Shown piece by piece: positions 21,056 to 24,132 of a stretch of DNA of 26,871 nt. The notes below the pieces were generated by a model. That model saw nothing but the letters and a program-made list of their open reading frames with translations, ran no database searches and had not been told where the DNA came from. Source of the DNA: Flavobacterium psychrophilum (GTDB lineage Bacteria > Bacteroidota > Bacteroidia > Flavobacteriales > Flavobacteriaceae); NCBI GenBank assembly GCA_945905915.1, contig CAMDQL010000018.1:1-26871 (forward strand), written 5' to 3'. The stretch's first letter is position 1. Each line of letters opens with the position of its first letter. Position numbers and translations under genes: made by a program.

Positions 21056-21718
21056 ATGAAAAACATAAAACTTTTAGTCGTATTATTTTTAGTTGCATTT
21101 ACAGCCTCTGCTCAGTTTACTCAAAAAGCGTTGCCATATGTATATAATGCTTTAGAACCATTCGTAGATGCTCAAACAATGGAAATCCATTACAGCAAAC
21201 ATCATGCAGCCTATGTAAAAAATCTAAATGCAGCTTTAACAGGAACTGCCGATGAAAAATTAAGTTTAAACGAAATTTTTGATAAAGTATCAAAATTACC
21301 AATGGCGGTTAGAAATAATGCTGGCGGACATTACAATCATGAATTGTTTTGGTCGGTGTTAACCCCTGAAAAAAACACTAAAATGTCAACTGAATTGGAA
21401 AATGCAATTAACGATACTTTTGGGAGTTTAGACAAATTAAAAGAAAAACTGAACGCTGCTGGAGCTAGTCGTTTTGGATCAGGCTGGGCTTGGTTAGTTG
21501 TGACTAAAGAAGGTAAATTAGTGGTTAGTTCAACTGCAAATCAAGATAATCCGCTAATGGATGTTGCCGAAGTGAAAGGAACACCAATTTTTGGCATTGA
21601 TGTTTGGGAACATGCATACTATTTGAAATACCAAAACAAAAGGGCAGATTATTTAGCTGCCTTATGGAATGTAGTTAATTGGACAGAAATCAGTAATAGA
21701 TATAAAGCGGCACTATAG
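21056..21718 (+). CDS. Exported superoxide dismutase, Mn/Fe family (Mn-type residues)
   Basis: This SOD converts superoxide to hydrogen peroxide and oxygen. Residues 1-19 (ending TASA) form a clear signal peptide, so the mature enzyme should work in the periplasm, unlike the usual cytosolic SodA/SodB. The metal ligands are His45 (MEIHYSKHH), His95 (GGHYNHELFW), Asp182 and His186 (GIDVWEHAYY). Gly90-Gly91 before the second His and Gln163 in ANQDNPL follow the manganese pattern, whereas iron enzymes normally carry the second-sphere Gln near the second His. A cambialistic enzyme remains possible. At 220 residues it is normal length plus the signal. The gene stands alone between radC and the ABC operon. 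Confidence 0.94.
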   Translation: MKNIKLLVVLFLVAFTASAQFTQKALPYVYNALEPFVDAQTMEIHYSKHHAAYVKNLNAALTGTADEKLSLNEIFDKVSKLPMAVRNNAGGHYNHELFWSVLTPEKNTKMSTELENAINDTFGSLDKLKEKLNAAGASRFGSGWAWLVVTKEGKLVVSSTANQDNPLMDVAEVKGTPIFGIDVWEHAYYLKYQNKRADYLAALWNVVNWTEISNRYKAAL

Positions 21719-21774: not shown

Positions 21775-22404
21775 ATGATAAGTACCAAAAATTTACTATT
21801 TTCTTATACTAAAGACCAAGAATTTATTTTTCCAGATTTGTATTGCGAAGCAGGAAGTACGTTGCTTATTACCGGAGATTCGGGTAAAGGAAAAACAACT
21901 TACTTACACTTATTGGCAGGATTGTTGCAACCAAAATCGGGTGAAATTATAATTGATAATACCGATTTAGTTTCATTATCAGAAAAGAAAACAGATAGAT
22001 ATCGCGGAAAAAATATCGGTGTAGTTTTTCAAAAATCCTATTTCATTGCGGCTTTAACGGTTCTGGAAAATCTACAAATAGCAAGTTGGTTAGCAACAGG
22101 TAAAAAGCATACTAAACGAGCAAAAAGATTGCTAGAACAATTAGGAATTGAAAATCAAGCATCTAAATTGCCATCTCAGTTGAGTATTGGTCAACAACAA
22201 AGGGTTTCAATTGCTCGCGCATTAATGAATGAACCAAAAGTACTTTTGGCAGACGAACCAACTTCTAGTTTGGATGATAAAAATGCTGAAAAAGTAATCG
22301 ATTTGCTAACTTCTTTGTCAAAAGAATACAAAGCAGCTTTACTTATTGTAACGCACGATAGCCGAATTAAAGAAAAATTCATTAATAAAATTACTTTGGT
22401 ATGA
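21775..22404 (+). CDS. ABC transporter ATP-binding protein, LolD/MacB class
   Basis: This 209-residue cytosolic ATPase drives the FtsX-type permease encoded next. All nucleotide-site motifs are present: Walker A GDSGKGKT (34-41), Q-loop Gln86 (VVFQKS), signature LSIGQQQR (136-143), Walker B VLLADEP (156-162) and switch His194 (IVTHD). It is slightly shorter than the typical 220-235 residues of LolD/MacB ATPases. It overlaps the permease by 4 bp (ATGA), indicating translational coupling. It is the first gene of a tight five-gene run. This class usually moves lipoproteins or transmits mechanical force across the envelope rather than importing small solutes. The partner proteins suggest a link to metal handling. 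Confidence 0.93.
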   Translation: MISTKNLLFSYTKDQEFIFPDLYCEAGSTLLITGDSGKGKTTYLHLLAGLLQPKSGEIIIDNTDLVSLSEKKTDRYRGKNIGVVFQKSYFIAALTVLENLQIASWLATGKKHTKRAKRLLEQLGIENQASKLPSQLSIGQQQRVSIARALMNEPKVLLADEPTSSLDDKNAEKVIDLLTSLSKEYKAALLIVTHDSRIKEKFINKITLV

Positions 22405-23654
22405 TTGCAAAATTAGCGTGGAAAAACATTTGGTTTAAACCATTAAATACTATCTTGAGTGTTATTTTATTAACATCGAGTGTCGCAATAATCACTACTT
22501 TAATTTTGGTTGAAAAACAATTTGAAGAAAAATTTTCAAGTAATATTGAAGATGTAGATCTTGTTTTGGGCGCCCAAGGAAGTCCGTTGCAATTAATTTT
22601 ATCTTCGGTTTACCAAGTAGATGCTCCAACCGGCAATATTAATTTTGATTCAGCAAAAGTATGGATGAATAATCCCTATGTTGAAAAAGCAATTCCGTTA
22701 GCCTTTGGCGATAATTATCGCGGTTACAAAATTTTAGGAACAACACACGATTATTTAACAAAATTCAAGGCAAAAGTGTCCGATGGAAGACTTTATGAAA
22801 AGAATTTTGAAGTAGTAGTTGGAAGCGAAATCGCTCAAAAATTAAATATAAGTGTTGGAGATGAATTCTTTGGCTCACATGGTGATGCAGAAGAAGGTGA
22901 GGTGCACGAAAACTATGCTTACAAAGTAGTTGGAATAGCAACTCATACTGGAAAAGTGGTTGATAATTTAATTCTTTGTACTATTCCCACGGTTTGGCAA
23001 ATGCACAGCGGACATGAAGAAAATCCTGCGCATGGCGAGGAAGGGCATGTGCATGAAGAGGGTGAACACGAACACGAAGAGGCGGATTTAACTCTAGATG
23101 AACCTAATATGGAGATCACAGCAGTTTTATTGAAAATGCGCAATCAAATGGCAAAATTAACTTGGCAACGCGTCATACCACAAAATACAAAAATGCAAGC
23201 AGTTTCACCAGCTTTTGAAGTTAATCGTTTATTTGGTTTGTTTGGGATAGGTGTAACGGCGTTGCAATATTTAGCCTACGGAATTATGTTGATTTCTGGA
23301 ATCTCCATATTTATTGCCTTATTCAATACATTAAAAGAACGAAAATCTGAATTTGCATTGCTTCGTGTTAATGGAGCAGGCAGATTTCAATTATTAAAAG
23401 TAGTAATGATAGAAAGTTTATCACTTTGTGTAGTTGGGTTTGTTTTTGGTACGATTTTAGGTAGAGTTGCATTAAGTTTTCTCTCTAATTCCTCAGAAGC
23501 AGATTTTAAAATGAGTTTTAATCCGTATGAATTTCTTTGGGAAAAAGAAGGAACGCTGTTTTTACTCACCCTATTTGTTGGCTTTATTGCTGCTTTGATT
23601 CCTGCTATAAAAGCCTATAATTTAAACATATCAAAAACATTAGCCAATGCGTAA
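22401..23654 (+). CDS. FtsX/MacB-type ABC permease with histidine-rich extracytoplasmic loop
   Basis: The 417-residue inner-membrane subunit has the FtsX/MacB layout: TM1 (about 16-38), a large extracytoplasmic domain (about 40-285), then three membrane segments (about 288-310, 332-358 and 386-406). KERKSEFALLRVNGA (312-326) is the typical cytosolic coupling loop. The extracytoplasmic domain contains an acidic, histidine-rich stretch at residues 202-228, with seven histidines between 202 and 225. Further histidines (160, 169, 182) lie just before it. Such loops commonly bind Zn, Ni or Cu. The gene overlaps the ATPase by 4 bp and the next gene by 8 bp. I recall a similar trio, with a DUF3299 protein, in gammaproteobacteria near zinc-regulated genes; substrate here is inference. 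Confidence 0.9.
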   Translation: MIAKLAWKNIWFKPLNTILSVILLTSSVAIITTLILVEKQFEEKFSSNIEDVDLVLGAQGSPLQLILSSVYQVDAPTGNINFDSAKVWMNNPYVEKAIPLAFGDNYRGYKILGTTHDYLTKFKAKVSDGRLYEKNFEVVVGSEIAQKLNISVGDEFFGSHGDAEEGEVHENYAYKVVGIATHTGKVVDNLILCTIPTVWQMHSGHEENPAHGEEGHVHEEGEHEHEEADLTLDEPNMEITAVLLKMRNQMAKLTWQRVIPQNTKMQAVSPAFEVNRLFGLFGIGVTALQYLAYGIMLISGISIFIALFNTLKERKSEFALLRVNGAGRFQLLKVVMIESLSLCVVGFVFGTILGRVALSFLSNSSEADFKMSFNPYEFLWEKEGTLFLLTLFVGFIAALIPAIKAYNLNISKTLANA

Positions 23655-24132
23655 TTTTAGTAAATTAGTTTTAGCCTTAGTTGTATTTATTTCATTAATG
23701 GGTTTCGAAAAAAACTCGAAAATTGAAAAACCATCAATTAATAAAACAACAGTTGTAACAGATACACTAACTTGGAAATTATTAGGTGATATCAAATATA
23801 TTCGTAAAAAACACGCTACATATGGCGAAGTAGAATTCCCACAAGTGAATTTAAAATTAAAAGCATATCATAATAAAACAGTTTATTTGACAGGTTTTAT
23901 TGTTCCTATTGATTCAAAAAATTATGCGCTTAGTAAAAATGTTTTTGCATCTTGCTTTTTTTGTGGAAAATCTGGGCCTGAAACCATTGCTGGATTAAAA
24001 TTTAAAGGAGGTTTGCCAAAGCTAAAAACCGACACTTATTTAACTATTAAAGGAACATTCAAAGCCAATGAGACCGATGTAGATGATTGGATTTACAACA
24101 TTGAAAATGCCGAAATTGTTTCAAAAAAATAA
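23647..24132 (+). CDS. Exported DUF3299-like protein with CxxC motif
   Basis: The 161-residue product has an N-terminal signal or anchor (about 5-20) without a lipobox cysteine. Its body is predicted mostly beta, with NKTVYLTGFIVPID (76-89) and YLTIKGTFKANETDVDDWIYN (131-151), the pattern I associate with DUF3299. The core motif SCFFCGKSGPET (102-113) has Cys103 and Cys106, which could bind metal or act in redox. Its start overlaps the permease stop by 8 bp (ATGCGTAA), so it is translationally coupled to the transporter and probably acts with it in the periplasm. The family assignment is from pattern memory, not a search, and its molecular function is unknown. Confidence 0.75.
   Translation: MRNFSKLVLALVVFISLMGFEKNSKIEKPSINKTTVVTDTLTWKLLGDIKYIRKKHATYGEVEFPQVNLKLKAYHNKTVYLTGFIVPIDSKNYALSKNVFASCFFCGKSGPETIAGLKFKGGLPKLKTDTYLTIKGTFKANETDVDDWIYNIENAEIVSKK

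Follow-up and report, generated by a model that had tools for sequence, protein, structure and literature searches.

A three-gene MacB-fold ABC system of Flavobacterium psychrophilum that probably handles zinc or a related metal

Three overlapping genes on the forward strand of a 26,871-nucleotide contig of Flavobacterium psychrophilum (CAMDQL010000018.1, positions 1 to 26,871; this whole stretch is the window) encode an ABC ATPase (21775..22404, 209 amino acids), an FtsX/MacB-fold permease (22401..23654, 417 amino acids) and an exported protein with a CxxC motif and a predicted OB-fold (protein 3; 23647..24132, 161 amino acids). We consider it likely that this trio is a Zrg-type, MacB-fold ABC machine without ZrgA, located at the inner membrane and working on zinc or a closely related transition metal; zinc as the metal is suggested by analogy with the relatives of the trio. 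A sequence-only reading of the window had proposed an envelope machine for metals, and that proposal is supported. The trio bears on the disputed question of how a MacB-fold ABC protein can serve zinc, and literature searches found no paper on the Flavobacterium version. Its family comprises about 1000 clusters of homologous proteins, mostly unnamed, which would gain a function, and the branch lacking ZrgA offers a simpler machine for study in harmless species.

Kinship of the trio with zrg operons

The ATPase and permease genes of the window overlap by 4 bp and the permease and protein 3 genes by 8 bp, exactly as first read. The ATPase matched ABC_tran of Pfam (6.5e-35), has a Walker A motif from residue 34, the signature LSIGQQQR from 136, a Walker B region from 157 and an H-loop VTHD from 192, and is 33–37% identical to the ATPases of four related operons; LolD was its top NCBIfam model (177.9 bits, cut-off 307.75). 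It is called ZrgC-like from these database matches, its motifs and the comparison of operons; the tree given below covers the permease. The permease, which we regard as ZrgB-like, carries FtsX (3.4e-16) and MacB_PCD (1e-8) domains, so that the LolD/MacB and FtsX/MacB classes first given to the two proteins were correct.

The window permease was compared with Zrg-type permeases, proteobacterial sequences serving as stand-ins for the Vibrio Zrg proteins. It scored 162 bits with the permease of Phaeobacter, 150 with that of a P. aeruginosa plasmid record and 140 with that of Ruegeria, versus 36.2 with MacB, 29.6 with LolC, 16.9 with LolE and 22.7–28.1 with three FtsX paralogues of F. cucumis. Because 140–162 bits to Zrg-type permeases stand against 16.9–29.6 to LolE and LolC, the permease is not a LolC/LolE member; the LolC/LolE model TIGR02212 gave 44.1 bits against a cut-off of 362.45. 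A tree of 54 permease rows split 48 family rows from 6 outgroup rows by a branch with support 91/93, found in 90% of bootstrap trees; the deep branching order within the family was poorly supported. The predicted fold is MacB/LolC-like, Foldseek giving MacB (5gko, 1.1e-14) as the best match of the model and the heme exporter HrtBA (7w7a) among the others. Gene order agrees as well: the annotated Phaeobacter operon (a plasmid record) reads Fur family regulator, DUF2796 (ZrgA), ATPase, permease, DUF3299; the P. aeruginosa plasmid record has ZrgA, then ATPase, permease and DUF3299; a Sulfitobacter record also has the ATPase-permease-DUF3299 order; and in a Ruegeria record an HlyD-type adaptor gene (HlyD_D23, 1.1e-8) takes the place of ZrgA before the same core. 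Judged by sequence, the window trio is homologous to the ATPase-permease-DUF3299 core of the zrg and PA4063–4066 operons.

Protein 3 begins with an N-terminal signal or anchor helix and has exactly two cysteines, 103 and 106, within a CFFC motif (residues 103–106; 23953..23964). Cys103 is invariant in a 17-row family alignment and Cys106 is replaced in the classical DUF3299 branch; in the relatives at loci L104, L102 and L143 the second cysteine is Ser, His or Val. The protein had been read as exported and DUF3299-like with a CxxC, and lack of any DUF3299 match would have counted against that reading. Searched by itself, it had no match in Pfam or NCBIfam, and DUF3299 (PF11736, cut-off 22 bits) was absent even at E 10. 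The likeness holds through intermediates. The PF11736 cut-off is exceeded by the relatives at L104, L143, L099 and L137; 7 of 25 relatives match DUF3299 (best 0.0017); a 25-row profile (A1) finds the L104 protein in its genome at 2.7e-8, and that protein is DUF3299 at 3.7e-19; and a wide 17-row profile (A4), which already contains rows above the DUF3299 cut-off, was the only one to find the structure of PA4066 (PDB 4hsp, 1.4e-10). Searches of the PDB with the single sequence and with a Flavobacterium-only profile gave no credible match. Foldseek placed 4hsp as the top match of the protein 3 model (6.8e-4); in a second structure search 4hsp tied with other OB-folds, and an OB-fold is accordingly the fold predicted by the model. 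The DUF3299 protein of the P. aeruginosa plasmid record is the same as 4hsp/PA4066 (4.9e-96) apart from a single visible difference. Protein 3 is, along this chain of profile matches, homologous to ZrgE/PA4066. A weak DUF1980_C match in 3 of the 25 A1 members (best 0.0025) may point to a superfamily of wider extent.

Scanning a collection of genomes yielded 74 related loci, mostly of Flavobacterium, 63 of them with at least 5 kb on both sides. The trio genes are adjacent in 73, the exception (L023) being a contig that starts inside the permease gene; the overlap of the permease and protein 3 genes is exactly 8 bp in all 74, that of the ATPase and permease genes is 4 bp in 52 of 73, and the CFFC of protein 3 is kept in 74/74. 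Among 72 wider loci bearing a protein 3 homologue, a family permease lies within 3 kb in 51, and the co-occurrence of the three genes is borne out in both sets. A YjjG-like gene follows the trio at less than 1 kb in 72 of the 73 loci with room, and RadC lies within 1.5 kb upstream in 51/70. One contig titled as a Limnohabitans metagenome-assembled genome (L061) holds a Flavobacteriaceae-type trio; its genome clusters with Bacteroidota in searches, and it is probably mis-titled or mis-binned. Tandem protein 3 copies after the permease (ATPase-permease-C-C) occur in Flavobacteriales loci such as L192, L196, L204, L208 and L216, with a protein of about 330 and then one of about 670 amino acids downstream, in recurring order. 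In L123 the ATPase and permease are followed by four CxxC OB-fold paralogues, two of which have a Fur-family gene between them, and a MerC gene lies upstream.

A comparable set had been placed in the zrg operon of V. cholerae, and the comparison with a Vibrio zrg operon was sound: the available text of PMC9817125 gives zrgE of V. parahaemolyticus as DUF3299, zrgB as permease and zrgC as ATPase, and a rise of the zrg genes of 76- to 206-fold in zinc scarcity. According to the available text of PMC9820375, in V. cholerae without znuA the zrg operon and zrgA are important for growth when zinc is limiting, and the data favour zinc import, with ZrgA required. Vibrio ZrgABCDE and the trio are alike in that an ATPase, a MacB-like permease and a DUF3299 protein are encoded together; the trio differs in that no ZrgA (DUF2796) was detected, the permease carries a His-rich segment, the window promoter lacks a zinc operator, and protein 3 has CFFC in place of the classical DUF3299 motif CIHxPPP. 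Among 296 genomes of the phylum none had ZrgA (PF10986, DUF2796) above the cut-off, and 13 had weak matches; the positive control of this search gave 2.6e-49 in Phaeobacter. A Pfam scan of 20 other window proteins found no metal-binding partner, adaptor or Fur-family protein, and the earlier remark that a substrate-binding partner is not visible holds for the window scans and for tblastn with ZrgA. Because ZrgA was looked for and not found, the trio is, on sequence grounds, outside ZrgABCDE in the strict sense, a ZrgA-less variant sharing the core.

PA4063–PA4066 of P. aeruginosa has likewise a split MacB (PA4064 ATPase, PA4065 permease) and, beside it, PA4066, whose structure (4hsp) is the nearest to protein 3 among those solved; it differs in possessing PA4063 (ZrgA), in a permease without a His loop, and in its proposed export of pyochelin-cobalt. 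MacAB-TolC shares the MacB-type permease fold, but in the window the ATPase is unfused and no adaptor or TolC lies beside the trio, and E. coli MacB lacks the Asp/His set described below. LolCDE shares a separate LolD-class ATPase and an FtsX-type permease; the window, unlike it, has one permease gene, and E. coli LolC and LolE are without the Asp/His set, bar one uncertain aligned His in LolE. With ZnuABC and the other cluster A-I zinc importers, only the presumed metal is common; the window permease is of an unrelated fold and no cluster A-I binding protein accompanies it.

A candidate metal site and a His-rich loop in the permease

The permeases of this family share an Asp/His set that we put forward as a candidate metal site. 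In a comparison of 65 family rows with 33 others (6 first, then 27 MacB_PCD permeases from eight genomes), Asp104 (22710..22712) was present in 65/65 family rows and 3/33 others; His160, in an HG pair (22878..22880), in 65/65 and 1/33, 29 of the 33 others being gapped at this column; His169 (22905..22907) in 60/65 and 0/33; and His202 in 65/65 and 0/33. A smaller alignment, with 60 permeases of the family and 6 from outside it, had D104, H160 and H202 in 60/60 and H169 in 56/60, with none in the 6 others, and the alignment-free pattern [AST]HG-x(4,22)-H-x(4,14)-[VI]xGI occurred in 51/65 family rows and 0/33 others. Each of the four residues is kept in all 74 close loci. Metal features in an FtsX/MacB-type permease had been thought unexpected; the Zrg family itself is a precedent for metals in permeases of this type, which corrects that view. 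Literature searches found no paper on this set, which is reported here as new and provides import and export camps alike with specific residues to mutate.

The His-rich extracytoplasmic loop, residues 202–232 (23004..23096), starts at the invariant His202 and has model pLDDT below 50 for residues 205–233. Seven of the 11 His of the window permease lie here (202, 205, 211, 216, 218, 223 and 225), in agreement with the loop as first read. The expectation that orthologues would keep it is correct for all 74 close ones, which have 4–29 His in the loop, and fails for many wider relatives, which are His-poor; between fixed columns of the 60 family rows the region varies from 10 to 137 residues and from 1 to 32 His. 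A maximum of at least 8 His per 40 residues was found in 51/74 orthologues vs 1/676 neighbouring open reading frames. The window value is 7, and because values of at least 6 were seen in 22/676 neighbouring frames, the loop of the window permease, taken alone, is only moderately unusual. Family-wide, the Asp/His set is by these alignments a stronger metal feature than the variable loop. Strict mutual exclusion of ZrgA and the loop was dropped, many ZrgA-less Bacteroidota permeases being also without a rich loop; there is a tendency in a small sample, in which ZrgA-neighboured permeases have 2–3 His per 40 residues in 3/3 (a small non-Bacteroidota sample) and non-Bacteroidota permeases without a ZrgA neighbour have 7–10 in 4/5, Deinococcus having 2. 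At L214 (10001–10300) a small exported protein with HDHGCEECH is encoded directly upstream of the ATPase, and the permease loop of that trio is His-poor.

Zinc-related neighbours and a candidate operator

A COG0523 GTPase nearest ZigA (NF038288) scored 529–570 bits in the six scanned loci where it adjoins the trio or protein 3, and 560 in L212, the cut-off being 600. Of 39 genomes, 19 have a cobW match below 1e-40, and in 5 a ZigA-type gene neighbours protein 3 or the trio. ZigA is described in the available text of PMC11834433 as a predicted zinc metallochaperone raised in zinc scarcity. The order ZigA-ATPase-permease-CFFC was found in L113 and L115; L213, L215 and L219 have a Fur-family gene immediately before the ATPase gene, and L123 has one within the cluster. 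By tblastn on the 74 close loci, Fur relatives were found in 4 (L025, L045, L065, L069) and ZigA in 2. F. bernardetii (L025) has a divergent Fur-family gene, then a MerC-like gene, ZigA and the trio; L045 has Fur, MerC-like and trio, and L065 Fur and trio; Salegentibacter (L069) has Fur, MerC-like, trio and ZigA, with an alkaline phosphatase 3.3 kb past protein 3. MerC was confirmed by Pfam in L123, L139 and L102; the MerC-like and FolE-like names in L025, L045, L069, L274, L280 and L286 were assigned by eye.

Alkaline phosphatase and M28/M42 peptidases use zinc, and genes for both kinds of enzyme recur near family members. The order alkaline phosphatase (PF00245), CPFC OB-fold protein, ATPase, permease was found on Deinococcus, Shinella, Rhizobium and Paracoccus plasmids (L232, L241, L242, L243), where the CPFC proteins, unannotated and directly downstream of the phosphatase, score 41–52 bits with the 17-row profile and 12–18 with the Flavobacterium profile. 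In L113 an alkaline phosphatase lies downstream of the ZigA-ATPase-permease-CFFC set, and in L115 PhoX and 5'-nucleotidase pieces flank it. An M28 or M42 peptidase lies near a protein 3 homologue in 6 of 21 permease-less loci (L114, L117, L119, L137, L138, L141; 4 of the 6 Pfam-confirmed); M28 was found in 0/74 close loci.

Between the Fur and MerC-like genes of L025 (5463–5527) lies TGCAACATAATTGCA, and upstream of the Fur gene of L069 (6213) lies the perfect palindrome TGCAACTATGTTGCA. The pattern TGCAAC-N3-GTTGCA was first derived from L025, so that the match there is circular; with at most one mismatch it has three sites in the 1.22 Mb of the 74 loci and window, these being L025, L069 and the permease coding sequence of the window at 23252. 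Eight whole genomes held 45 sites at this tolerance vs 11 for the backward control pattern, with five exact. Fifteen sites had their genes read: 6 (L274, L278, L280, L285, L286, L287) adjoin genes of the Fur, MerC-like, ZigA, FolE-like or P-type ATPase kinds, that of L279 lies between genes of other kinds, and 8 fall within coding sequence. The palindrome was not found upstream of ZigA in L113, nor of MerC in L139 and L102. We regard it as a candidate zinc-regulon operator in several Bacteroidota, which makes a zinc regulon of this phylum directly testable; a literature search for TGCAAC with Zur in Bacteroidota found nothing relevant. The shorter TTGCA, which falls within the final 70 bp before the ATPase gene in 49/74 stretches vs 103/740 shuffles and is missing there in the window, may belong to the promoter. 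Palindromes of any sequence before the ATPase gene (with perfect 9-bp arms in 12/74 stretches vs 8/370 shuffles) were set aside, the conspicuous ones being read as terminator hairpins of upstream genes.

Proposed mechanism and rival explanations

In the proposed machine two ATPases and two permeases would assemble as in MacB, forming a split MacB, and ATP binding and hydrolysis would move the periplasmic domains of the permease. Asp104, His160, His169 and His202 would form a metal site on the extracytoplasmic domain, the His loop may gather metal as the local counterpart of the His-rich ZrgA of Vibrio, and the exported OB-fold CxxC protein would exchange metal with the permease; the net benefit would be zinc supply under zinc scarcity. 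We tentatively favour uptake, meaning delivery toward the cell, over export; the literature, as far as the available texts go, is split between import in Vibrio and pyochelin-cobalt export in Pseudomonas.

Several observations weigh against this assignment. The window itself holds nothing that identifies a metal, and relatives of Fur, ZigA, ZrgA, MerC and alkaline phosphatase were not found in it. ZrgA, needed for Vibrio zrg function, was not found by tblastn in the window or the 74 close loci, and no Fur relative was found by tblastn in 70 of these 74. The Fur-family neighbours that do occur are far below NCBIfam cut-offs and not clearly Zur, that of L136 being nearest PerR (93 bits). The window promoter is without the palindrome (best 7 of 12 letters; 0/74 upstream stretches reach 10), and, because no such site is present there, present-day control of the window trio by this element is improbable. 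Protein 3 compared by blastp with the DUF3299 proteins of Zrg operons gave E 0.97 or worse, and the Flavobacterium-only profile fails to find them; the His count of the loop is low in many relatives outside the close loci. MacB-fold transporters usually export, and relatives of this fold push lipoproteins, peptides or mere force. For PA4063–4066, export of pyochelin-cobalt has been argued (PMC11481552, in its available text).

A MacB-type pump of that kind, exporting a metallophore or metal-chelate and using the Asp/His site to recognise the chelated metal, is an improbable rival. MacB is the best structural match of the permease, HrtBA is among the matches, Ruegeria has an HlyD-type adaptor gene at the ZrgA position, and the available text of PMC11481552 reports that, where zinc import is already deficient, losing PA4065 increases the pyochelin and cobalt inside the cells. 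None of 23 window proteins scanned matched an adaptor or outer-membrane channel family, however, tblastn with the Ruegeria protein found no adaptor relative in the window or the 74 close loci, and the company of ZigA points to cytosolic zinc allotment in shortage. It is also unlikely that the trio is an envelope metallation machine, in which the CxxC OB-fold protein would carry the zinc that is loaded into exported zinc enzymes or recovered from them. The link of alkaline phosphatase to family genes in Deinococcus, Shinella, Rhizobium, Paracoccus, L113 and L069, of PhoX and 5'-nucleotidase in L115, and of M28/M42 peptidases to permease-less protein 3 loci would fit such a machine; several of these loci seem closely related to one another, though, leaving about 5 independent cases at a guess, the window trio has no such enzyme beside it, M28 was found in none of the 74 close loci, and co-location may reflect only a shared zinc regulon. 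A literature search for zinc metallation with alkaline phosphatase and MacB found nothing relevant.

We hold it very unlikely that the trio is an ordinary LolCDE- or MacB-like transporter for lipoproteins or peptides with incidental histidines. The LolD model, though below its cut-off, leads for the ATPase, and the FtsX and MacB_PCD domains are those expected of such a transporter, but the permease is 17–36 bits from LolC, LolE and MacB, which lack the Asp/His set common to Zrg permeases, and there is one permease gene and no adaptor. Scarcely any credence is given to a redox system in which the CxxC protein is a thiol-disulfide partner: a CxxC in an exported protein invites this reading, yet the predicted fold is an OB-fold, and replacement of the second cysteine while the first is invariant is a poor fit to a redox pair. 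For the Zrg-type metal machine itself a wider scheme can be offered, as a speculation that we think doubtful: a whole family of MacB-fold machines, ranging from Deinococcus to Bacteroidota and for the most part unnamed, might, with the Asp104/His160/His169/His202 site and the OB-fold cysteine carrier, act as an ATP-driven zinc transfer engine in the envelope, supplying or stripping exported zinc enzymes (alkaline phosphatase, M28 peptidases), with the His loop replacing the missing ZrgA and a Fur-family zinc regulator acting at TGCAAC-N3-GTTGCA in many Bacteroidota.

Elsewhere in the window, the first 2.9 kb hold no open reading frame of at least 90 amino acids closed at both ends. An exported Mn/Fe superoxide dismutase gene (21056–21718) adjoins the trio; because the same neighbour is present in only 18/70 related loci, it is probably not part of the trio system.

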